A DNA stretch of 64,000 bases from contig NZ_JANQOO010000017.1 in NCBI RefSeq assembly GCF_028285715.1, positions 682,001 to 746,000 of the forward strand, in the 5' to 3' direction. Within the stretch, counting starts at the first letter, position 1. Every line of letters begins with the position of its first letter. Below are positions 2,317 to 50,199 of this stretch, piece by piece. Source of the stretch: Ulvibacterium sp. (GTDB lineage: Bacteria; Bacteroidota; Bacteroidia; Flavobacteriales; Flavobacteriaceae). Both the position numbers and the translations under genes were made by a program. A model generated the notes under the pieces. It was not told where the DNA came from. It saw nothing but the letters and a program-made list of their open reading frames with translations, and did no database searches.

Positions 2317-4713
2317 GTGGTAGCAAAACTTACACAAGGCTTCTGGGCGAGAACCGCCCGTATCATCCTCCGTAACCGGATATTGATTTTGGTTTTGATC
2401 GCCGCTTTTACGGTCTTTTTAGGACTGCAATGGGAGCATATGCGCTTTAGCAGTTCCCAAGCAAATTTACTCCCGGACGACCACCCCATTAACCAGGAAT
2501 ATCAATCCTTTTTGAAGCAGTTTGGCGAAGAAGGTAACGCAGTCGTATTTGCCGTTAAGGACAGTGCCTTGTACGCTCCGCAGAATTTTAACCGATGGAA
2601 TCGGCTCAGCAAGCAGTTACAGGCTTTTCCCGAAGTGGATTTTGTCCTTTCCACGGACAATCTCCTGGAACTGAAGCGCAATTCCGAAAAGCAGGAATTT
2701 GTTTTGGAACCCTTTATTAAGGATTCCTTGGATACCAAAAGGAAAATAGATAGTCTTACCGGATATCTCTTCAATAACCTTCCCTTCTACGACAAACTCA
2801 TTTACAATAAGGAAAGTAACACCATACGGACCATAGTGAACCTGGATAAGGATATTGTAAACACTTCCGTACGAAAAGATTTTATTCTAAAGGACCTTAC
2901 CAATCTTATTGACGATTTTGAGGAGGAAACCGGCCTAAACGTACATGTATCCGGGATGCCTTATATCCGTACCCTGAATTCACAGAATATTATTGATGAA
3001 ATCGGGAAGTTTATCTTTGCGGCACTTGCCGTTACTTCCCTGATTTTTTTCTTTTTCTTTAGAAGCGTCAGGGCAACCACCATTTCCATGTGCGTCGTTA
3101 TTATTGGCGTAATGTGGGCATTTGGCATTCTAGGTTTGTTGCAATACGAAATTACCGTGCTCACCGCATTAATCCCTCCGTTGATTATCGTAATCGGAGT
3201 GCCCAATTGTATTTTCCTTATCAACAAGTATCAGCAGGAGGTAAAAAAACATGGCAATCAGGCTCTTTCGTTACAACGGGTCATCTCCAAAATTGGCAAT
3301 GCCACCTTAATGACCAACATGACCACGGCTTCTGGCTTCGCGACCTTTATTATAACGGACAGCAAATTGCTAAAGGAATTTGGTGTTGTCGCTTCCATAA
3401 ACATCATCGGTATCTTTATTTTATCCCTATTGATCATTCCCATTGTTTATAGTTTTATGTCGTTGCCGAAGACCAAGCATTTAAAACATCTGAACAAAAG
3501 ATGGATCGATGCCTTCGTCAACTGGATGGAGCGTATAGTCCGAGACCATAGGATAGCGGTATACATTGTTTCCATAGCCCTTTTAGTTGTAAGCATTATA
3601 GGCATCTACCAAATCGAGATTTCAGGAAGTCCTATAGAGGATATGCCCAAAAAGGCCGAGTTTTTTCAGGACATCCGTTTTTTTGAGTGCGAATTTGACG
3701 GAATTATGCCGGTTGAAATCGTGGTGGATACCGAAAGGCCGAAGGGCGTATTGAAGCCGGCGACCTTGAAACGCATAGATCGATTGGGCGAAGTCATCGA
3801 AGAAATTCCAGAACTTTCCAAATCGATTTCCGTAGTCAATTTGGTCAAATATTCCAAACAGGCCTTTTACAACGGTATTCCCAAATACTATCAACTTCCC
3901 ACCGCACAGGAAAACAATTTCATTATGGATGTCGCCCGGAAATCTTCGGGCAATAGTGACCTGCTCAAAAATTTTGTCGATAGCACGGGACAAACCGCCC
4001 GGATCACAACCTTTATGAAAGATGTTAAAACGGATCGGATGGAGGAAATAGAAGATAGGCTATTGGAGCATATCCAAAAGATTTTTCCCTCGGAGCGCTA
4101 CAATGTCTATATGACCGGTAGTGCGCTTTTATTCCTAAAAGGCACTAAATTTTTGGTAAAGAACCTGGTGCTTTCCTTGGCTTTTGCCATTTTTTTGATA
4201 GCCCTGTTCATGGCCTATTTATTCCGTTCATTCCGTATGATCATTATATCCCTGATTCCCAATTTGCTCCCATTGGTCATTACCGCCGGGGTCATGGGCT
4301 TTGTGGGGGTTCCCATAAAACCGTCCACCATCTTGGTATTTAGTATTGCCTTTGGTATTTCCGTTGATGACACCATTCACTTTCTGGCCAAATATCGTCA
4401 GGAGCTTACCGCAAATAAGTGGCGTATTCAAAAGTCAGTATACGCGGCCCTTAGGGAAACGGGGGTAAGTATGTTCTATACGTCCATTGTTTTGTTTTTC
4501 GGTTTTTCGGTTTTTGTTATCTCCAACTTTGGTGGAACGGTAGCCTTGGGTTCCTTGGTTTCGGCTACCTTGCTTTTTGCCATGTTGGCCAATCTTATTT
4601 TATTGCCCTCCCTTCTACTCTCTTTGGAAAGGAGTATAGCCAACAAAGAGGTGTTGAAAAAACCACAAATAGATATTCTTCCCAAGGAAGAGGTAAATAT
4701 GGAAAACCCATAG
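2317..4713 (+). CDS. MMPL/RND-family transporter (predicted exporter), GTG start
   Basis: 798 aa with two repeated multi-TM halves; TATCTTTG -7 element at 2290-2297. Confidence 0.9.
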   Translation: MVAKLTQGFWARTARIILRNRILILVLIAAFTVFLGLQWEHMRFSSSQANLLPDDHPINQEYQSFLKQFGEEGNAVVFAVKDSALYAPQNFNRWNRLSKQLQAFPEVDFVLSTDNLLELKRNSEKQEFVLEPFIKDSLDTKRKIDSLTGYLFNNLPFYDKLIYNKESNTIRTIVNLDKDIVNTSVRKDFILKDLTNLIDDFEEETGLNVHVSGMPYIRTLNSQNIIDEIGKFIFAALAVTSLIFFFFFRSVRATTISMCVVIIGVMWAFGILGLLQYEITVLTALIPPLIIVIGVPNCIFLINKYQQEVKKHGNQALSLQRVISKIGNATLMTNMTTASGFATFIITDSKLLKEFGVVASINIIGIFILSLLIIPIVYSFMSLPKTKHLKHLNKRWIDAFVNWMERIVRDHRIAVYIVSIALLVVSIIGIYQIEISGSPIEDMPKKAEFFQDIRFFECEFDGIMPVEIVVDTERPKGVLKPATLKRIDRLGEVIEEIPELSKSISVVNLVKYSKQAFYNGIPKYYQLPTAQENNFIMDVARKSSGNSDLLKNFVDSTGQTARITTFMKDVKTDRMEEIEDRLLEHIQKIFPSERYNVYMTGSALLFLKGTKFLVKNLVLSLAFAIFLIALFMAYLFRSFRMIIISLIPNLLPLVITAGVMGFVGVPIKPSTILVFSIAFGISVDDTIHFLAKYRQELTANKWRIQKSVYAALRETGVSMFYTSIVLFFGFSVFVISNFGGTVALGSLVSATLLFAMLANLILLPSLLLSLERSIANKEVLKKPQIDILPKEEVNMENP

Positions 4714-35670: not shown

Positions 35671-36606
35671 ATGATTATGAAAAATTTAGCACTTGTCGGA
35701 TTATTTTTCGTTATGTTCAGTCTCCCGATCCTTGCCCAGGAAAACAAAAAACAGCAGGACATGAAGTCCATAAAGGATATGTGCGGTTGCTATGAGATCA
35801 AGTTTATGTATACGGAGACTTTTGCCCCGGAAATCGATTATGAAAAACATCATGATTATACGGCCGCCGCTCTGGAATGGGCCGAACTCATAGAGGACAA
35901 AAACGACAAATTATCGATACAGCACATTTTAGTAGTCAATGATACCATGGTGGTAAAACACTGGCGACAAGACTGGGAGTACGAAAACCGGAATGTTTTT
36001 TATTATGATAAGGATAATACGTGGAAATTTAAAAGGCTCCCGGCAGAAGCAGTAAAAGGGCAATGGACACAAAAGGTTTTTCAGGTAGATGACAGTCCTA
36101 GATATTCTGGGTCGGCCACCTGGGTCCATTTAGATGGCAAACACTATTGGGAAAGCAAGACCGATGCACCCCTTCCTAGAAGGGAATACAGCAAAAGAAA
36201 GGACTACAACGTGATGCTCCGTGGCAACCGACAGGAAATTACCGATTATGGCTGGATACACGAACAGGACAATGACAAGATAATTCGGGAAGATGGTAAG
36301 GAAGATGTACTACTGGCACAGGAGAAAGGCTATAATGTATATACCAAGGTAGCCGACGAGAAATGTAAACTTGCCCAGGATTGGTGGAAATCCAACCATA
36401 AATTCTGGAGCAAGGTCCGCAATTCTTGGAGTGAGGTATATGACAATAGACAGGGAGAATTGACCTTGAACAAAGCGGTAGACGGAAAACCTCTATTCAT
36501 GCATTTTTATCCGTTGGAAAAAGAGAGAGCCAAAACGAAAGATATCGGTGAAGTCATTCAAAAATTCGTTGCCGATAAATCCATAAAGAATGTACAAGGC
36601 AAATAA
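35671..36606 (+). CDS. DUF6607-like secreted protein
   Basis: Signal peptide; CGCYEIKFMYTETFAPEIDYEKHHDYTA; located next to HmuY/TonB genes. Confidence 0.65.
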   Translation: MIMKNLALVGLFFVMFSLPILAQENKKQQDMKSIKDMCGCYEIKFMYTETFAPEIDYEKHHDYTAAALEWAELIEDKNDKLSIQHILVVNDTMVVKHWRQDWEYENRNVFYYDKDNTWKFKRLPAEAVKGQWTQKVFQVDDSPRYSGSATWVHLDGKHYWESKTDAPLPRREYSKRKDYNVMLRGNRQEITDYGWIHEQDNDKIIREDGKEDVLLAQEKGYNVYTKVADEKCKLAQDWWKSNHKFWSKVRNSWSEVYDNRQGELTLNKAVDGKPLFMHFYPLEKERAKTKDIGEVIQKFVADKSIKNVQGK

Positions 36607-37144
36607 ATCCATTTGTTCGGTAATCGTATTTTTGGTCGCTATTCTATTATATTCATTTTCCGAGGCTCAAATTTCTCCTAGGTTGCAAAAGAAGATAGAT
36701 GCTGCGATTCATTCGACCTATGGAATTGAAGCCTTTGAATTGAGGAAAATAAACGTGGAGGTCGAATTAAAGGATACGCTGCCCTTATTGCTGAATGGTG
36801 ACTCTCTTTTCGAAATCATACAGGACACCAATGTAATCGGCTACCTATATCTAGGAGAAGCACCTAGTATGAAACAAATGTTCGATTACATTGTTATGTT
36901 CGATCCCGACTTGATCGTAAAAAAATCAAAGGTGTTGATTTATCGCGAAGATTATGGACAACAAATCGGAAGCCAAAGATGGTTAAAACAGTTCAACGGG
37001 CTCTCCAGCATCGATGTTCCCATATACGGAGAAAACATTGATGCAATCTCTGGGGCGACTATTTCCGCCTCCAATATGACAAAGGCTATGGCCGATGCCT
37101 TAAAAAGTATAGCCTTATTAAAAAAGGAACAACTATTGCCATGA
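36590..37144 (+). CDS. FMN-binding domain protein (covalent-flavin SGAT motif)
   Basis: IDAISGATISASNMTKAMADALK; N-terminal membrane/signal segment. Confidence 0.82.
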   Translation: MYKANKSICSVIVFLVAILLYSFSEAQISPRLQKKIDAAIHSTYGIEAFELRKINVEVELKDTLPLLLNGDSLFEIIQDTNVIGYLYLGEAPSMKQMFDYIVMFDPDLIVKKSKVLIYREDYGQQIGSQRWLKQFNGLSSIDVPIYGENIDAISGATISASNMTKAMADALKSIALLKKEQLLP

Positions 37145-37497
37145 ACGATAAACAAGATATCCATCCTATTTACCACAATCCTTTCGGTGTGGCCTTTCAA
37201 TGGAAAAAGAACGATGTAAAGGATACCAACAAGGTACAATTGGTCTTTCGAGATACGGGCCTATTGCTTTCGAGAAAGGAATTAACGGATTTTCAAAAAA
37301 GCATTAAATGCACTATAAAGAGTAGTACCCTTTGTAAGAATTGTCCACAAGATGAATCACGTAGGGCGCTCTTATTGGACACGCCGGCACCTCAGGTAAC
37401 ACTAGCAGTGAGTCCAAAAGAGTTGAATGTCGTTGATGACCTGGTGGAAGGGACACTGTTTCAATTGCAGTTGGACCATCTACTATATGGATCATAA
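37141..37497 (+). CDS. Conserved Bacteroidota protein, DUF6686-like
   Basis: Paralogue of 31937-32287; ATGA overlap with the preceding FMN-binding gene. Confidence 0.65.
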   Translation: MNDKQDIHPIYHNPFGVAFQWKKNDVKDTNKVQLVFRDTGLLLSRKELTDFQKSIKCTIKSSTLCKNCPQDESRRALLLDTPAPQVTLAVSPKELNVVDDLVEGTLFQLQLDHLLYGS

Positions 37498-37558
37498 GAG
37501 TGCGGTATATACACCCTTTCATTTCAAAAACCTATTTTAAGTAAGCAGAACGGGCTAA

Positions 37559-38050
37559 ATGAAATTCTATCGATCTATTCAACATTTCCCAAAAGAGATG
37601 AAGATTCTCACGGGCATTTTTTTGGTGGTTCTTAGTATTGGATTCTTGTCGGCCTTACGATTCGTTTCCGTAACTACCGAGGCAGGTCCCAAGGGTATTC
37701 AGGAAAACTATCTGGGTAATGAGGAAGACCTCGAAGCAGAAGAAATGAAGTTTAAAAAAAATGAAAAACAGCTCCTCAATATTGTCCATAGCCATATTCT
37801 GTCCATGGCGCTTATCTTTTTTATTTTGGCCCTTTTAGTGACGACAACCCCGATAAAGGGATTTATTAGACAATTTCTTTTGTTTGAGCCCCTACTTTCC
37901 GTATTGACCACTTTTGGGGGAATTTATTTTTTATGGAATGGTATTTTATGGATGAAATATGTGGTGGTGATTTCCGGTGGTTTGATGACAATTTCCTTTG
38001 TACTTTCCGTTGTTATGATCTTTTATTGGTTATTCAAAACGAATGCTTGA
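37559..38050 (+). CDS. Hypothetical multi-TM protein of the heme-uptake locus
   Basis: 163 aa, four hydrophobic segments, conserved-looking HSHILSMALIF. Confidence 0.7.
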   Translation: MKFYRSIQHFPKEMKILTGIFLVVLSIGFLSALRFVSVTTEAGPKGIQENYLGNEEDLEAEEMKFKKNEKQLLNIVHSHILSMALIFFILALLVTTTPIKGFIRQFLLFEPLLSVLTTFGGIYFLWNGILWMKYVVVISGGLMTISFVLSVVMIFYWLFKTNA

Positions 38051-41430: not shown

Positions 41431-42141
41431 AAATAACAAGAATTAGATTGGAATGATTCTAAAGAATAACCCTGTAAAATTCATCATTTCTTTACCTTGA
41501 TTTTACATGGACAAGTTTTGATTCTCAACAATTTTATTAACAGTTTTGTCTTCATATCGATTATCCCCTGATGTCCAAAACTTTAGCCTAAAGAGTACAT
41601 TTTTGTGAAAAGACGAAAAGCTCAAGTATTTTTCAATCCCCGTTTTCTTCTTGAAAGATTTTGAAGATATCTTGTAACCGGCGATACGATTTTTCAAATT
41701 GCGAGTTACGAATTAGTGGAAGCAAGAAAAAAATCAGTTTAAAATATGGACATAGTCAATTTCAGATGCGCTCCTGCATCCGTGAAGTATATGGTACTGC
41801 GGAAGACCTGCAACTACCTACTTGTTAATTCCAAATGAAAGTTGTTGAAGCAAAGATGAAAGAGTCATACGAGAATTTAAAATAAATGAGTTCAGTCATC
41901 AATAGCGATGGTATCCCAACCTCCAGGAATTGATCTCAAATCCGGACGAAGATGGGATACGAAAAAAATTGGGAATTTAAAAAAGCCTCTCCTGGGAAAG
42001 AAGTCCATCACTTTTGTCCAATACATTTTAAAAACACGGGGCGAGCAAGTTCCTTAAGCCCATTAAAGCGATAATTATAGGTCTTTAAAGTATCCTTTTT
42101 CAAATTTTTTTGTCTACTTTATAGTAAATCATAAAAATTTC

Positions 42142-42264
42142 ATGATGAAAGGAAATTGTACCTGTACCAAATGTAAGTGTATGAATTGTGAATGTTCAAG
42201 TTGTTCGCCTAAAAGCTGTACTTGCAAAATTTGCGACTGCTCAAAATGTGCATGCTGCAATTAA
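42142..42264 (+). CDS. Metallothionein-like Cys-rich peptide (40 aa, 14 Cys), absent from ORF track
   Basis: MMKGNCTCTKCKCMNCECSSCSPKSCTCKICDCSKCACCN*. Confidence 0.8.
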   Translation: MMKGNCTCTKCKCMNCECSSCSPKSCTCKICDCSKCACCN

Positions 42265-42302
42265 ATCGTAATCAACCCATTGCCCAAGTAAGATTTCCAC
42301 GT

Positions 42303-42818
42303 ATGGATTTGTCCACTTCAAAAGTTTGGGAGGATTTTTACACGGACCTCTATTTTTTTACCTTGAGAAGGGTAAAAAACAAGGATGTAACGAACGATAT
42401 CCTTCAAAACAGCTTTATAAAGATTCACCGTAACTTGAATAAGCTGCAACAACCGAACAAGGTTAGGCAATGGGTTTTTCAAATTACCCGTAATGAAATT
42501 GCAAACTTTCATAAAGGCAACAAAACCCATGCTAAACCCCTCGATGTAAATGAAACAACTAAGGATTTTCTGTGCTGTTTCGATAGATTTGTTGAAGAGT
42601 TACCTGAAATATATAAAGCAGTTATTTTACCCGTTTACTTTCAAGGAAAGAAACAGGCTGAAGTTGCCAAGGACTTGGGAATTTCCCTCCCTAACCTCAA
42701 AGCAAGGATACGAAGGGCCAAGCACATTCTAAAGGAACGGTTCACGAGTTGTTGCAAATATGTCAGCAACGAAAAAGGTCAATTGATTGGAGAACCGGAT
42801 TGCGCAATTTGTAATTAG
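42303..42818 (+). CDS. ECF-type RNA polymerase sigma factor with Cys-rich C-terminal tail
   Basis: Region 2 WEDFYTDLYFFTLRRVKNKDVTNDILQNSFIKIHRNL; region 4 LPEIYKAVILPVYFQGKKQAEVAKDLGISLPNLKARIRRAKHILKERF; tail TSCCKYVSNEKGQLIGEPDCAICN. ORF opens at 42222, likely start at 42303. Confidence 0.88.
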   Translation: MDLSTSKVWEDFYTDLYFFTLRRVKNKDVTNDILQNSFIKIHRNLNKLQQPNKVRQWVFQITRNEIANFHKGNKTHAKPLDVNETTKDFLCCFDRFVEELPEIYKAVILPVYFQGKKQAEVAKDLGISLPNLKARIRRAKHILKERFTSCCKYVSNEKGQLIGEPDCAICN

Positions 42819-42852: not shown

Positions 42853-42885
42853 TTTCAACAGTCTCAAACAACTGTTGAATTTTTC
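42853..42885 (+). terminator. Hairpin TTCAACAGT...ACTGTTGAATTTTT
   Basis: Inverted repeat followed by T-run downstream of the ECF gene. Confidence 0.65.
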
Positions 42886-43020
42886 CCTTTTTGAATGCAC
42901 CTCATTTAAGGTTATTCCCAAGTCTTGCATTTTCTAAAGGGTTCATTAATGGGAATAGTTGGAATTCCCTGAGTGAACAAAACCAATGACATTTCGATAT
43001 AAAAAATCTCTTTTCTTACA

Positions 43021-43122: not shown

Positions 43123-44349
43123 ATGAAAACAATCAGCTTAAAAACAGCAAAATTCCATGCCAAGGTCTACATGATCTTCGCCATGATGATCGGCGTAATG
43201 GCCATAATTATCTTTTCAGCTTTCGAAAAGAAAGAAGAAGAAGAAATTGCTCAGAATGAACCCCAAGGACTTCCGGTGGAGGTATCCTATCCCATATTCG
43301 AAAAAATAACCGAATGGGATGAGTACACCGGTCGTTTTGAGGCCAGTAACCGCGTTGAGGTCCGTGCACGGGTAAGCGGTTACATTGAGGACGTAAGCTT
43401 TAAGGATGGTCAATCCGTAAACAAAGGAGATGTTCTATTTACCATTGACCAAAGACCCTTTAAAATTGCCTTGAACCAAGCAAGGGCCAGTTATGGGCAA
43501 GCCAAAGCAAGATTGACTATTGCTCAGGACAATTATGACCGTGTACAATCACTACGGGAATCCGGCGCAGTTTCAGCGGAGGAATATGATAGCCGTAAAC
43601 AAGCTCTAGCAGGCGCCAAAGCCTCATTGCAATTGGCACAGGCCTCAGTAGACAATGCTAGATTAAACCTCGAATTCACCAAAGTAAAGGCGCCCATTTC
43701 GGGACGTGTTAGCCGTGATATGGTCAACGAGGGGAATTTAATCGATGGAGGGTCTTCCAATTCGACCTTGTTGACAACCATAGTTGCCACAAGTCCCATT
43801 CATTTTTATTTCAGGGGAAGTGAGTCCGATTACTTGAAGTATTCCCGTTTGGCCCAAAATGGCGAAAGAGGTTCTTCACGTTCAACCGCCAATCCAGTCT
43901 TTTTAAAACTTCAGGATGAAGATGAATATGTACATGAAGCGGTTATGGACTTTGTTGATAACGAAATTGACAGAAGTACCGGAACCATTGAAGGTAGGGC
44001 CACACTGGAAAACAAGGATGGCTTAATAGAACCCGGTATGTTCGGTAAAGCCAGATTACTAGGTAGTTCAGAGCACGAGGCCATCCTAATCCCTGATGAG
44101 ATTATAGGGACAAATCAATCGGTACGTTTCGTATATGTGGTAGCTGAGGACAATACCGTCAACACGAAGAACATAGAACTCGGTCCTTTGCATACGAATG
44201 GATTGCGAATCGTTAGAAACGGATTATCTCCCAAAGACCTGCTCATTACCAATAACATCCAGAAAATCCGACCTGGCGTTGCGGTAAGTCCGGTTGAAAC
44301 ATCTTTAACGAATAATAACGATGCTCTAGCCTTTAGCGAAGCAGAATAA
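43123..44349 (+). CDS. RND efflux periplasmic adaptor subunit (AcrA/MexA-like)
   Basis: VEVRARVSGYIEDVSFKDGQSVNKGDVLFTIDQRPF; hairpin and beta-barrel regions. Confidence 0.95.
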   Translation: MKTISLKTAKFHAKVYMIFAMMIGVMAIIIFSAFEKKEEEEIAQNEPQGLPVEVSYPIFEKITEWDEYTGRFEASNRVEVRARVSGYIEDVSFKDGQSVNKGDVLFTIDQRPFKIALNQARASYGQAKARLTIAQDNYDRVQSLRESGAVSAEEYDSRKQALAGAKASLQLAQASVDNARLNLEFTKVKAPISGRVSRDMVNEGNLIDGGSSNSTLLTTIVATSPIHFYFRGSESDYLKYSRLAQNGERGSSRSTANPVFLKLQDEDEYVHEAVMDFVDNEIDRSTGTIEGRATLENKDGLIEPGMFGKARLLGSSEHEAILIPDEIIGTNQSVRFVYVVAEDNTVNTKNIELGPLHTNGLRIVRNGLSPKDLLITNNIQKIRPGVAVSPVETSLTNNNDALAFSEAE

Positions 44350-44455
44350 TCAACCCTAACATATTACATCCCTTTTCTCTCTCTATTGCTTTGAATTAAC
44401 AGCAAAAATGAGAGAGACTGGGATACCCTTGTCCAACACTAAAAAAATAGAAATC

Positions 44456-47400
44456 ATGAAATTCAGTCACATTTTTATCCAAAGACCCATATTCGCAGCG
44501 GTGCTCAGCATCTTGATCGTAATCGTGGGAGGATTGGCATACGTTTCCTTGCCAGTATCACAATTTCCCGATGTTGCACCACCAACCGTTCAAGTAGTAG
44601 CCGCATATCCCGGGGCTAACGCCCAAACCCTTTCAGAAACCGTTGCCACTCCCCTGGAACAGGAAATCAACGGTGTTGAGGGAATGATTTACATGACCTC
44701 CCAATCTTCTGCGGATGGCTTGGTTACCCTTCAGGTAGCCTTTGAACTAGGAACTGATTTGGACCGCGCCCAAGTCCAGGTACAGAACAGGGTGGCCATA
44801 GCCGAACCTCGATTACCGGAATCAGTCCGTAGGTTGGGAATTACCACCAACAAGGTATCCCCTGATATTTTATTGGTGGTAAATATGTATTCTCCCAATA
44901 AAACCTATGACCAGACTTACATTGGCAACTATGCTACTTTGCAGATGATCGATCAAATAGCCCGTATCAAGGGGGTTGGCGACATCCAAATCTTTGGTGC
45001 CGCTGAATATGCCATGCGCATTTGGTTAGATCCCGATAGAATTGCCAATTTGGATATGACCGCGGGCGAAGTGGTAGCGGCCCTAAGGGCACAGAACGTT
45101 CAAATTGCCAGTGGTACCCTAAACACTCTACCGTCCGGAAGCCAATCCGCTTTTGAAATCAATATCCAGACCCAAGGAAAACTGGTTACTCAAGAGCAGT
45201 TCGAGAATATCATCATAAAAGCAGAGGAAAACGGTCGAATCGTTCAGCTCAAAGACGTCGGTCGTGTGGAGTTGGGCGCCCAAAACTATGCCACCAAAGG
45301 GTATTTGGGAAAAGACCCGGCCATTGCCATGCCCATCTACCAACAGCCTGGTGGCAATGCACTTGAAACTGCCGCAGCCATCCAAGATAAAGTAGCGGAG
45401 CTTTCAGAGAATTTTCCTGAGGACCTGGAATACAAAATTGCCTATAACCCCACAGAATTTGTACAAAAATCAGTTGACGAGGTATACCATACCATTTTTG
45501 AGGCGATTTTACTTGTTGTATTCGTAATACTGCTCTTCTTGCAATCTTGGCGGGCAGCGATAATCCCCATCTTGGCCATCCCCGTCTCCTTAATCGGAAC
45601 ATTTGCCGTAATGCAGGGGTTGGGATTCTCCTTGAACAACCTCACCTTATTCGGATTGGTATTGGCCATTGGTATTGTGGTTGACGATGCCATCGTAGTG
45701 GTAGAAAACATGGAACGCTACCTGGCCCAGGGGCTATCTCCAAAAGAGGCGGCGCGCAAGACCATGGATGAAGTCGGTGGTGCCTTGGTCGCTATTGGAT
45801 TGGTACTTATTGCAGTATTCATCCCTACAACATTTCTTGAGGGGATATCCGGGCAGTTCTACAAACAATTTGGGTTGACCATTGCAGTAGCAACAGCTAT
45901 CTCAGTTTTTGTATCGCTTACCTTAAGTCCTGCATTGGCCGCATTATTAATGCGTCATGAAGCTCATGACGAACAGAAAAGAACACCTTGGTTATTACGG
46001 CCTTTCAAATTTGTAGGTGACGGTTTCAATCGATTCATGGATGGATTGTCCATTCGATATGGGAAGGCTGTTAGCAAATTGGTCAGAACCGGGTCTATGG
46101 TAATGTTAATCTATGGAGGACTTATTGCTCTTACCGGCTTTGAGTTCAATAGGGTTCCCAGTGGATTTGTGCCTGCCATGGATCAACAATATTTTATTAC
46201 GGCAATTCAACTGCCCCCAGGCTCTTCATTAAGCAGAACGGATAAAGTGGTACAAGATGCTATAGACACCCTATTGGAGGTTGACGGGGTTGCCAATACA
46301 GTATCCTTTACCGGTTTCGATGGGGCATCCTTTACCAATGCCTCCAATGCCGCGGCGATTTTCGTTACGCTGGAGGACTTTGATATAAGAACCCAAAAAG
46401 GAATTGGTTATGAGGATTTGCTGGGTACCCTCCGGGCAAAAATGGCAGAGGTTGATGACGCTTTTGTAGTAGTTATCCCTCCCCCATCTGTCCGTGGTAT
46501 TGGTAACGCAGGTGGATTTCGAATGATGGTCCAGGATAGGGCCAATCTAGGTAACGAAACCTTATTGAATGCCACCTATGAGCTAGCTGCCGCTGCCAAT
46601 CAGGACACTAAACTTAATAGTGTGTTTACATTCTTCAATAACCAGACTCCACAATTGTATCTGGATATTGACCGTGTAAAAGCAGAACAATTGGGTATCG
46701 ATGTCGCTGAGGTATTTCAATCCTTGGAAGTGTATCTAGGGTCGGCTTTTGTGAACGAATTCAACTATTTGGGAAGAACCTACCAGGTAACTGCCCAAGC
46801 AGATGCCCCCAATAGGTTGACACCGGATGACATTTCGCGAATTAAAGTGAGAAACCAAAATGGAGACATGGTGCCATTAGGAACCATCAGCACCCAAAAA
46901 GACATCGCCGGACCCAATAGAATTCCAAGATTCAACCTATATCCATCCGCATCTTTGGTCGGGGACATTGCGCCAGGCTACAGCACAGGACAGGCTTTGG
47001 ATAGAATGGAAGAATTGGCCGCCGACATTTTGCCCCAAGGGATTTCTTTTGAGTGGACCGAAATGGCCTATCAGCAAAAACAAACGGGAAATACCGCGGG
47101 AATCGCCTTCCTTCTCGCCGTGGTCTTTGTATTCTTGCTTTTGGCCGCCCAGTTTGAAAGTTTGGTTCTTCCATTGGCCGTTATCTTTATTGTACCAATG
47201 GTACTTTTATCGGCCATGATAGGTATCGACCTAGCAGGATTGGACAACAACATTATGGTGCAAATTGGTTTGGTGGTTCTTGTAGGTCTTGCCAGTAAAA
47301 ATGCCATCTTAATTGTGGAGTTCGCAAAACAGTTAGAGGACCAGGGGAATGATTTGAGAACGGCCGTCATCGAAGCTTCCAAATTACGCTTACGTCCTAT

Positions 47401-47638
47401 TTTAATGACCGCCATGGCCTTTATTCTGGGAGTAGTACCCTTGGCCATTGCGACCGGTGCCGGTGCCGAACTAAGAAATGCCTTGGGCATTGCAGTTTTC
47501 AGCGGAATGCTCGGGGTTACTGTATTCGGAATTTTCTTGACACCGGTGTTCTATTATCTAGGAAGAAAATGGACCACCAAAACCAAAAAGATCGATGCAA
47601 CTGACACAACACGTCATCAAATCCAAGCAGCACTCTAA
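44456..47638 (+). CDS. RND efflux transporter permease (AcrB/MexB-like)
   Basis: MKFSHIFIQRPIFAAVLSILIVIVGG; GLVLAIGIVVDDAIVVVENMER; ORF opens at 44408. Confidence 0.96.
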   Translation: MKFSHIFIQRPIFAAVLSILIVIVGGLAYVSLPVSQFPDVAPPTVQVVAAYPGANAQTLSETVATPLEQEINGVEGMIYMTSQSSADGLVTLQVAFELGTDLDRAQVQVQNRVAIAEPRLPESVRRLGITTNKVSPDILLVVNMYSPNKTYDQTYIGNYATLQMIDQIARIKGVGDIQIFGAAEYAMRIWLDPDRIANLDMTAGEVVAALRAQNVQIASGTLNTLPSGSQSAFEINIQTQGKLVTQEQFENIIIKAEENGRIVQLKDVGRVELGAQNYATKGYLGKDPAIAMPIYQQPGGNALETAAAIQDKVAELSENFPEDLEYKIAYNPTEFVQKSVDEVYHTIFEAILLVVFVILLFLQSWRAAIIPILAIPVSLIGTFAVMQGLGFSLNNLTLFGLVLAIGIVVDDAIVVVENMERYLAQGLSPKEAARKTMDEVGGALVAIGLVLIAVFIPTTFLEGISGQFYKQFGLTIAVATAISVFVSLTLSPALAALLMRHEAHDEQKRTPWLLRPFKFVGDGFNRFMDGLSIRYGKAVSKLVRTGSMVMLIYGGLIALTGFEFNRVPSGFVPAMDQQYFITAIQLPPGSSLSRTDKVVQDAIDTLLEVDGVANTVSFTGFDGASFTNASNAAAIFVTLEDFDIRTQKGIGYEDLLGTLRAKMAEVDDAFVVVIPPPSVRGIGNAGGFRMMVQDRANLGNETLLNATYELAAAANQDTKLNSVFTFFNNQTPQLYLDIDRVKAEQLGIDVAEVFQSLEVYLGSAFVNEFNYLGRTYQVTAQADAPNRLTPDDISRIKVRNQNGDMVPLGTISTQKDIAGPNRIPRFNLYPSASLVGDIAPGYSTGQALDRMEELAADILPQGISFEWTEMAYQQKQTGNTAGIAFLLAVVFVFLLLAAQFESLVLPLAVIFIVPMVLLSAMIGIDLAGLDNNIMVQIGLVVLVGLASKNAILIVEFAKQLEDQGNDLRTAVIEASKLRLRPILMTAMAFILGVVPLAIATGAGAELRNALGIAVFSGMLGVTVFGIFLTPVFYYLGRKWTTKTKKIDATDTTRHQIQAAL

Positions 47639-47647
47639 CATATTAGA

Positions 47648-47707
47648 TTTTGGTCAAAAGATGGGTGTTTTTGGTTACCCCGGAACACCCATTCGGACCG
47701 AACTTTG
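47648..47707 (+). promoter_or_regulatory. AraC-type tandem operator/promoter: TTTTGGTC -13- TTTTGGTT -23- GAACTTTG
   Basis: Half-sites at 47648 and 47669; -7-like box at 47700-47707; upstream of outer-membrane channel gene. Confidence 0.82.
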
Positions 47708-47731
47708 AGAACGAATAAAAAAATAGAAATC

Positions 47732-49201
47732 ATGAAAAATCTAACACTAATAACAGTACTATCCCTAATACTGGTTTCCTGTGGAATTACCAAAAGGGAT
47801 TTTGAAGTCAACCCAAAAACTGAAGTTGATGAAAATTACCTGGAAAATGTAACTGACCATGCCGCTTTTGAAGAATCACAAGGTCAAATAGTAACCGAAT
47901 GGTGGTCAGAATTTAACGATCCCGTTCTGGATACCTTGATCCAAAAAGCACAACGGCACAATTTGGACATCAATGCAGCTATTGCCAACTTCCATGCTTC
48001 ACGTGCGGTATTGAAAGGGACAAAATTGGACCGATTGCCAACAGTAACCGCGAATGGCAATGTTACCCGAACCCGTTTGGGCGAAAATATTTTTGTTCCC
48101 GGGGCCAATCCTACATTCACCACCTACAATGGAAGTTTTGATGCGTTCTGGGAAACGGATGTGTTTGGCAGGGTCTCCAATAGAATTAAAGGCGCTTATG
48201 CCAGTCAGCAATCTGCGCTTGCCGATGTGCAAGGGGTATATGTGAGCATTTTTGCAGAAGTGGCCCGAAACTATATGGAATTCCGTGGCGCCCAGTACCA
48301 ATTGGACATTGCACAACGTAACTTGAGCGGACAGCAAGCCACCTATGACTTGACAGTTCGGTTAAAGGATGCCGGAACAAGCAATAGTTTGGATGTTTCC
48401 CGTGCCTTGGCGCAGTTGGAGAATACGCGTGCCACCATTCCCCCATTAAAGGCCAGAATTGCGGCACTAAAAAACAGCTTGAGCGTTTTAATCGGGGAGG
48501 TCCCCGGAAATTTGGACGGAACCGTCATAAACAAAAAGCCGCTGCCTAGTCTACCACTTTCTGTGAGCCTGGGAAACATTACCGATTTATTACGAAGACG
48601 TCCTGATGTAAAACAAGTGGAAGCCCAATTACAAGAGCAAATAGCGCGTTATAATCTTTCCGTGGCGGAACTTTATCCCAATATTCAATTTGGGGGATCT
48701 ATAGGTTTCTCTGCAGTAGATTTCTCCAACTTCGGAAGTAACCCATCCTTTACCTGGAGCATTATCCCGAACGTAAGTTGGGCCGCTTTTAATCTAGGTC
48801 GAGTGAAACAACAAATCAATCAGAACGATGCCTTGACGCTAGCTGCTCTGCAATATTACGAAAAGACCGTTTTAGAAGCACTGGAGGAAATCAGCACGGC
48901 GATGACCAATTATACCAACGAACTGGAACGTAGGGAAACCTTACGAAAATCCTCGATTGCCAGCGCCGAGGCGGCCGGAATTGCAAAAAGACGATTTAAT
49001 GCGGGCTTGGATAGTTTTATAGATTACCTCAGTGCGGACAACACACTGTTGTTGGCAGAAAATCAATTGGCCATTAGCGAGATTGCTTCCGCCACATCCC
49101 TGATAGCCATTTACAAAGCCCTAGGAGGAGGATGGGAAATCATTTCGGAGGAAAAATTGGATAAACAATTTAAGAGTATGAAATTAGCAGAATCCAAATA
49201 A
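47732..49201 (+). CDS. TolC/NodT-type efflux outer-membrane lipoprotein
   Basis: Lipobox ILVSCG; RRPDVKQVEAQL; ORF opens at 47705. Confidence 0.94.
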   Translation: MKNLTLITVLSLILVSCGITKRDFEVNPKTEVDENYLENVTDHAAFEESQGQIVTEWWSEFNDPVLDTLIQKAQRHNLDINAAIANFHASRAVLKGTKLDRLPTVTANGNVTRTRLGENIFVPGANPTFTTYNGSFDAFWETDVFGRVSNRIKGAYASQQSALADVQGVYVSIFAEVARNYMEFRGAQYQLDIAQRNLSGQQATYDLTVRLKDAGTSNSLDVSRALAQLENTRATIPPLKARIAALKNSLSVLIGEVPGNLDGTVINKKPLPSLPLSVSLGNITDLLRRRPDVKQVEAQLQEQIARYNLSVAELYPNIQFGGSIGFSAVDFSNFGSNPSFTWSIIPNVSWAAFNLGRVKQQINQNDALTLAALQYYEKTVLEALEEISTAMTNYTNELERRETLRKSSIASAEAAGIAKRRFNAGLDSFIDYLSADNTLLLAENQLAISEIASATSLIAIYKALGGGWEIISEEKLDKQFKSMKLAESK

Positions 49202-49233
49202 CAACACACAACGGTTTTGGTGTTGGATAGAAC

Positions 49234-49267
49234 GGCGACCTTTCAGTAATGGAGGTCGCTGTTTTTA
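49234..49267 (+). terminator. Hairpin GCGACC...GGTCGC followed by T-run
   Basis: gcgacctttcagtaatggaggtcgctgttttta. Confidence 0.75.
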
Positions 49268-49296
49268 TTTAAAATGAAGTATTTTTATTAAAAACT

Positions 49297-50199
49297 ATGT
49301 CCTCCCAGAAAATATATCATTCCATATCGGAATTTTTCAATTCCATTAATTTGGAAATTGAACAGGATTTTGATTTTACCATTCACAGTCTAGACAAACT
49401 CCATGGGGAGAAGGCCATTTCATCCCCCTTTTTTAGGACAAATTACGTAGCCTTCTTGCTCATAGCATCGGGCAAGGGACATTATACCATAGATGAGCAT
49501 TGGTTTGAATTAAAACCGAGATCCTTTTACTTCACACTTCCTGGACATTTAAAATCATTCACCATTGAGGAAAACTGGCAGGGGTATATGCTAACATTTT
49601 CCATGGAGTTTTTACGGTCCAACTATCCTGGCAATGTCGATCAGGATTTTCCATTTTTACTAAAGGAAACCGTTCCCGTGATGTATCTTCGCCAGCAGGA
49701 TTACCAGAGGATTAACAGGTTATGCGAGGTATTCATTCAAGAGTACAATGGAAATTCCACGTTTAAAAAAAGAATAGTGGCCAACCAATTGGTTACCTTT
49801 CTATTCCAAACCAAAGAATTACTACTGTCCCACCAAGCAACTATTTCTTTGGCAAACCGCCCAACGGAAATTGCAAAATCTTTTCAGGCTGCATTGAATA
49901 AGAACCTTTTGGATATTACAAAAGGTAATGCGGAATACATCTGGAACGTGCAGGACTATGCCAACAAACTTACAATGCACCCCAATTACTTGAGTACAAT
50001 CATTAAATCCCAAACAGGCAAAACGGTGAAACAATGGATCGATGAACGAATCATTTCCGAGGCAAAATCCCTATTGAACAATACGGACCTGTCCGTTGCT
50101 CAAATTACCTACCGCCTAACTTTTGAAGATCCCTCCAATTTTTCCAGGTTTTTCAAGAAAAAAACAGGACTTACTCCTGCAAAATACCGTACTTCTTAG
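49297..50199 (+). CDS. AraC/XylS-family transcriptional regulator (#1)
   Basis: C-terminal double HTH: YANKLTMHPNYLSTIIKSQTGKTVKQWIDERII...DPSNFSRFFKKKTGLTPAKYR. Confidence 0.94.
   Translation: MSSQKIYHSISEFFNSINLEIEQDFDFTIHSLDKLHGEKAISSPFFRTNYVAFLLIASGKGHYTIDEHWFELKPRSFYFTLPGHLKSFTIEENWQGYMLTFSMEFLRSNYPGNVDQDFPFLLKETVPVMYLRQQDYQRINRLCEVFIQEYNGNSTFKKRIVANQLVTFLFQTKELLLSHQATISLANRPTEIAKSFQAALNKNLLDITKGNAEYIWNVQDYANKLTMHPNYLSTIIKSQTGKTVKQWIDERIISEAKSLLNNTDLSVAQITYRLTFEDPSNFSRFFKKKTGLTPAKYRTS

Follow-up and report, generated by a model that had tools for sequence, protein, structure and literature searches.

A conserved gene pair for a metallothionein-like peptide and a SigZ-like ECF sigma factor: a likely self-driven metal-stress operon of Flavobacteriaceae and other bacteria

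Metallothioneins are, to our knowledge, poorly known in Bacteroidota. Elsewhere, the metallothionein NmtA is under the control of an ArsR/SmtB-family repressor (PMC8790569). Among ECF sigma factors, CorE and CorE2 are gated by copper or Cd/Zn through a Cys tail and a linker Cys motif, without an anti-sigma factor (PMC3107203, PMC8999054), the tail Cys of CorE lying at positions 181, 184, 192 and 194 (PMC3107203). Cys-rich C-termini also occur in groups ECF287 and ECF288, for which a review suggests CorE-like action (PMC8999054).

Here we describe a two-gene locus of Ulvibacterium sp. in which a Cys-rich peptide and a Cys-tailed ECF sigma factor are encoded side by side. It lies in a stretch of 64,000 nucleotides, the whole of which we call the window; its features are given in Table 1. 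The first ORF translates as MMKGNCTCTKCKCMNCECSSCSPKSCTCKICDCSKCACCN, and the C-terminus of the sigma factor reads TSCCKYVSNEKGQLIGEPDCAICN. The first-pass annotation had claimed both a 40-aa, 14-Cys ORF and an ECF sigma factor with a Cys tail, and both are present where it placed them. Its gap of 38 nt between them is correct provided that the sigma gene starts at ATG 42303, which aligns with the starts of sigma relatives and is most likely the true start; the mechanically called ORF opens earlier, at TTG 42222, and the alternative ATG 42252 overlaps the end of the peptide gene. We consider it likely that the pair is a self-driven metal-stress operon, in which an autoregulated metallothionein gene is coupled to a sigma factor that would itself sense metal.

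Table 1. Features of the locus, in window coordinates
Feature	Position	Strand	Remarks
ECF-type promoter, GTATCCTTT-N13-GTCTA	42090..42116	+	-35-like 42090-42098, -10-like 42112-42116
Metallothionein-like peptide, 40 aa, 14 Cys, CxC/CxxC spacing	42142..42264	+	likely start 42145
Inter-ORF gap	42265..42302	+	relatives: terminator-like hairpin; window: none
SigZ-like ECF sigma factor, 171 aa	42303..42818	+	longer starts possible at 42252 or 42222
Codons of the Cys-Cys pair in the linker of sigma regions 2 and 4 (C91-C92, with M at 42303 as residue 1)	42573..42578	+	
C-terminal Cys tail: C150-C151, beta-hairpin with G159/L161/G163, C167xxC170	42750..42815	+	
Terminator-like hairpin and T-run after sigma gene	42854..42889	+	1 found vs 0.9 expected in shuffles, weak alone

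The peptide looks metallothionein-like, and metal binding would be expected of it. Its composition is that of a metallothionein, a small protein with roughly 30% Cys in CxC and CxxC motifs and hardly any aromatic residues: 14 of its 40 residues are Cys and none is aromatic. No homology to a described metallothionein family was found in Pfam, NCBIfam or PDB: profiles of the first two gave no match even at E<=10 and PDB sequence comparison gave none, a result to be read with the composition filters of HMMER in mind, which may hide weak matches. Because no profile matches, annotation pipelines could easily miss the peptide. The conserved spacing to the promoter slightly favours ATG 42145 over 42142 as its start. 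Across the family, most peptides are 33-41 aa long and fall into two classes. Class A, that of the window copy, has 14 Cys in the pattern MNxCxCTNCxCTKCNCxNCxxxxCPCxKCECxKCxCC, and class B has 11 in the pattern MKNxECTCNCxxCxxGNCxNCTCENCTCxNCNC.

The sigma factor scores above the Pfam cut-offs for PF04542 and PF08281 (regions 2 and 4, with no region 3). Its match to TIGR02959 (SigZ) is strong (E 3e-35) and, at 121.4 bits, below the curated cut-off of 168.65 bits; a class-B relative comes closer, at 163.1 bits. An AlphaFold model of the protein matches ECF sigma structures and has two domains (mean pLDDT 82.5) whose relative placement is unsure (pTM 0.47). In the tail, the model places a short beta-hairpin between the CC and CxxC pairs, with modest confidence and no metal included. 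Residues C150, C151, G159, C167 and C170 are invariant across 79 aligned sigma factors. In the linker, C92 is found in 85 of 86 peptide-linked sigma factors and in 18 of 23 others, while C91 is typical of class A, the class B linker having a single C. Peptide-less SigZ relatives, including Priestia SigZ, also have C92 and C150, and mostly C151, and what sets the peptide-linked clade apart is its terminal CxxC, along with the second glycine of the GxLxG turn. Judged from this distribution, the linker Cys and tail CC are old features of the SigZ family, and thiol or metal sensing could on this view predate the peptide. The peptide-less sigma factors with a tail CC, and mostly also a linker Cys, are L066, L083, L086, L088, L095 and Priestia SigZ (L328:1501-2031).

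Upstream of the peptide gene lies a strikingly constant promoter. Of 109 distinct upstream regions, 108 (68 of them exactly) carry the motif GYATCYTTT-N13-GTCTA at fixed spacing and with no more than two mismatches, as against 8 of 2180 shuffled regions; the motif ends a median of 27 nt before the peptide ATG. GTCTA resembles the classical ECF -10 element. We presume that this promoter is the target of the operon's own sigma factor, and the operon thus looks autoregulated, its upstream regions having the ECF-type promoter expected of such a system. In the 5.0-Mb genome of the window, the only exact site is the module's own; sites with one or two mismatches are no commoner than in a reversed control, those with one mismatch being within open reading frames. 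Across 32 class-B genomes, 21 of 26 matches are again the module's own. Downstream of GTCTA, TGAAC and AAAA are conserved in most loci, where transcription of the peptide leader would be expected to begin.

The pair itself is widely conserved. When 301 genomes of the same family were searched separately with the sigma factor and with the peptide, both genes turned up side by side, and the peptide found direct matches in nine other genomes of the family. A search for the pair in other Bacteroidota, as suggested by the first-pass annotation, places a Cys peptide ORF directly upstream of 77 of the best 80 sigma relatives in named genomes. Lack of conservation of the 40-aa ORF was among the refuting points that it named; the ORF is conserved in about 100 genomes. 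Carriers, marine Bacteroidota among them, are mainly Flavobacteriaceae, with others in Weeksellaceae, Crocinitomicaceae, Hymenobacteraceae, Roseivirgaceae and a Saprospiraceae MAG, as well as in Balneolota (Balneolaceae) and one MAG labelled Deltaproteobacteria; Kaistella, Brumimicrobium, Pontibacter, Rhodonellum and Roseivirga are among the carriers outside Flavobacteriaceae. The near-identical sigma factors of Roseivirga and Psychroflexus suggest some lateral transfer. Salegentibacter sp. 24 and Aequorivita sp. CIP111184 each have the complete module twice, the two copies of the latter (L136, L155) being 16 kb apart on one contig.

The two genes are supported as a conserved, compact module without an anti-sigma factor. 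The adjacent absence of such a gene had been claimed before and holds in the window, where the neighbours are a ribonucleotide reductase pair, upstream of the peptide gene on the other strand, and an RND efflux operon that begins at 43123, 300 nt downstream of the sigma gene. A hairpin after the sigma gene is likely the end of the operon. Conserved neighbours offered no functional clue beyond inherited synteny: around class B modules only such synteny is seen (icmF-type mutase, Lrp, MFS), and around class A nothing is conserved. The window's RND pump, 3′ of the sigma gene, was considered as part of the module and rejected, as it is not conserved beside the module in relatives. Its operon (43123-50199) encodes a MexE-type RND adaptor, the RND pump, an outer-membrane factor and an AraC-type regulator. 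Further off, a cluster at 35671-38050 comprises genes for a small Cys-containing protein weakly matching DUF6686, for a DUF6607 protein and for one with an FMN_bind domain.

From these features, we suggest the following mechanism. The ECF sigma factor would recognise the promoter and transcribe its own operon, peptide first and sigma second. In place of an anti-sigma factor, metal bound by the sigma factor's Cys tail, probably with the linker Cys taking part, would set its activity. A rising level of a thiophilic divalent metal, most likely of Zn/Cd type and possibly Cu/Ag, would activate the sigma factor and yield a short-leader transcript from which the peptide is made. The peptide would then sequester the metal in metal-thiolate clusters and so remove the signal, closing a negative-feedback loop.

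That metal is involved is supported by more than analogy, through the cation-efflux genes that this promoter precedes in relatives. Two class-B genomes have the exact motif 17-23 nt upstream of CDF cation-efflux genes, identified by their sequence and mutual similarity rather than a Pfam scan. In Zunongwangia pacifica (L170:3183-6734), a class-A sigma factor lacks the peptide, and a 209-aa Cation_efflux protein (PF01545, E 2e-10) takes the peptide's place, with the motif 56 nt upstream of its gene and also 32 nt before a convergent TonB-dependent receptor; another copy of the motif precedes a broken CDF paralogue. The class-A sigma factor of G229 (L052:5590-7761) likewise lacks the peptide, and there too the motif precedes a convergent TonB-dependent receptor; this receptor, and another behind the motif in a Tenacibaculum, are related to that of Zunongwangia. 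For one class-B CDF gene, most orthologues in other class-B genomes are without the motif, and CDF control is, on this pattern, a lineage-specific recruitment. Of the remaining matches, several fall within coding regions, one is upstream of the gene for an M48-like peptidase and a few are upstream of genes for small lipoproteins; all of these may be chance. Two congeneric species, G056 (L106) and G276 (L107), both have a promoter-like motif about 150 nt before a lipoprotein gene. The earlier proposal of a two-gene module for metal sensing and sequestration thus stands in its core, the conserved compact pair, and gains from the cation-efflux genes; it did not include the promoter, the intergenic hairpin of relatives described below or the replacement of the peptide by a CDF protein in Zunongwangia.

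Signal metals of Zn/Cd type are favoured, because the usual substrates exported by CDF proteins are Zn, Cd or Co. TonB receptors usually import, and their presence behind the promoter could reflect scarcity of metal just as well as surplus. The same operon could answer to another signal, either Cu(I)/Ag(I) or other soft metals, or oxidative or thiol stress to which the tail would respond as a redox switch. Metallothioneins are good Cu(I) binders, disulfides can form in CC and CxxC pairs, and CorE is itself copper-gated (PMC3107203). The recruited targets, however, are the CDF genes, and neither a copper ATPase nor a multicopper oxidase was seen among the genes behind the promoter; we regard a signal other than Zn/Cd as unlikely, though a serious contender.

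Another reading takes the peptide as a direct partner of the sigma factor, acting as a tiny metal-dependent anti-sigma factor or as a metal donor or acceptor that docks on the Cys tail. Peptide and CxxC tail do co-occur tightly, an association that counts for the metal-stress operon as well. With the tail defined as CC-x6-9-G-x-[LIF]-x-G-x3-10-CxxC, 75 of 76 tail-positive named sigma factors have the peptide, and in a Flavobacteriaceae sample 37 of 38 sigma factors with the tail have it, against 1 of 19 without; these counts are not independent events, because the clade is largely inherited as a block, the peptide state changing three times on the tree. Further, class A peptides pair with class A sigma factors and class B with class B. 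Against such a partnership, the tail-positive sigma factors without a peptide (L170 and L052), which form one clade of Zunongwangia and a close relative, are instructive: Zunongwangia retains the Cys tail, linker Cys and promoter, and its sigma factor can apparently work alone. Conversely, L060 (G226) has a class-A peptide ORF with no adjacent sigma gene (about 4480-4610, minus strand) and a partial promoter. Direct partnership is accordingly improbable in our judgement. At the place expected for the sigma gene in L060, two small genes resemble a toxin-antitoxin pair (PIN-like).

Between the two genes, most relatives carry a terminator-like hairpin. Stems of at least 8 bp occur in 93 of 99 distinct peptide-sigma gaps, with z>2 against shuffles in 91 of 99 and a median of 5-6 T within the next 10 bases, and the hairpin starts a median of 5 nt past the peptide stop codon in class A and 15 nt past it in class B. 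Among the class A stems examined, which were selected for pairing, each base pair shows compensatory changes, and class B stems are of entirely different sequence; Rfam gave no match. In relatives, the hairpin is probably a leaky terminator that would end most transcripts after the peptide gene, giving much peptide and little sigma factor and damping positive feedback. This reading applies to the family and not to the window copy, whose gap has no terminator-like hairpin (stem 5, z -0.1); that copy may have lost the hairpin or may never have had it. Taken together, one operon could combine sensor (the sigma tail), activator and buffer in a metal thermostat, the hairpin setting the ratio of peptide to sigma factor, perhaps with modulation by ribosomes at the terminal Cys-Cys-stop. 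We put this fuller picture forward tentatively, as a possibility.

The same anatomy could be that of an attenuator, with a Cys-rich short first ORF, a short leader and a hairpin close behind the stop codon. Ribosomes stalled on Cys codons, especially the final Cys-Cys, would block the hairpin and allow readthrough into the sigma gene; the signal would be a shortage of cysteine or charged Cys-tRNA, and the peptide product would be irrelevant. What is conserved, however, is the protein. Cys residues hold fixed positions along the whole peptide, and their spacing and many non-Cys residues are kept; Cys invariance within class A is no independent test, as the class is defined by its Cys pattern, but TGT and TGC are mixed freely at its Cys codons, which fits selection on the protein. 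Moreover, the window copy and a few others keep the peptide without the hairpin, G226 keeps it without a sigma gene and the same promoter serves CDF genes elsewhere. A Cys-codon leader is therefore decidedly improbable. That a chance Cys-rich ORF merely adjoins an ordinary ECF sigma gene, as a 700-nt region without other genes alongside and a length below usual annotation cut-offs might allow, is practically negligible, given 14 Cys against a maximum of 6 (4-6 per 40 residues in the densest ORF stretches of 20 Markov-1 sequences of 64 kb), no other stretch of the 64-kb window with 8 Cys per 40 residues and a pair conserved with promoter and hairpin in about 100 genomes.

ORFs of 33-41 codons easily escape annotation, and a large set of them appears here, tied to a SigZ-type sigma factor. 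If the metal-stress operon does act as a thermostat, its peptides would form a metallothionein family that is widespread and, it appears, undescribed, and the module would offer a general clue to what SigZ-type sigma factors sense. We found no account of the function of this SigZ-type sigma factor, nor, in the open-access literature searched, a description of the peptide-sigma pair. The constancy of the promoter allows regulons to be read directly across genomes, what the SigZ-like sigma factor senses becomes a simple reporter question, and the module would represent a compact natural circuit of metal sensor and buffer.

SigZ (TIGR02959 / PRK09637; Bacillus, Priestia) is the best-matching sigma family, with the linker Cys, tail CC and glycine turn in common. 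Priestia SigZ, in contrast, is without the terminal CxxC, and no Cys-rich ORF lies within 600 nt upstream of its gene; a plasmid search found only distant SigZ relatives. The peptide resembles the bacterial metallothioneins SmtA/NmtA, PmtA and MymT, which are likewise short and very Cys-rich, with CxC and CxxC motifs and presumed cytosolic metal-thiolate clusters, but it is shorter and matches none of their families. Control also differs, NmtA being regulated by a repressor, whereas here the peptide gene is the first in an operon with an ECF sigma gene. The peptide-linked sigma clade might fall in ECF287 or ECF288 and so already have a group number. The CorE paper makes no mention of metallothionein (PMC3107203). 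The first-pass annotation had drawn the parallel with CorE, and it holds in part. Our sigma factor and CorE/CorE2 of Myxococcus xanthus (former ECF44, now ECF238) are alike in a C-terminal Cys extension, a linker Cys and the lack of a linked anti-sigma factor. The module sigma factor is nonetheless nearest to SigZ, and its Cys spacing is not that of CorE: CC-x15-CxxC in about 21 residues as against CxxC-x7-CxC in a 38-residue domain, and a linker CC (class A) or single C (class B) in place of CXC. By analogy, then, it probably works as CorE and CorE2 do, gated directly by metal through a Cys arrangement of its own.
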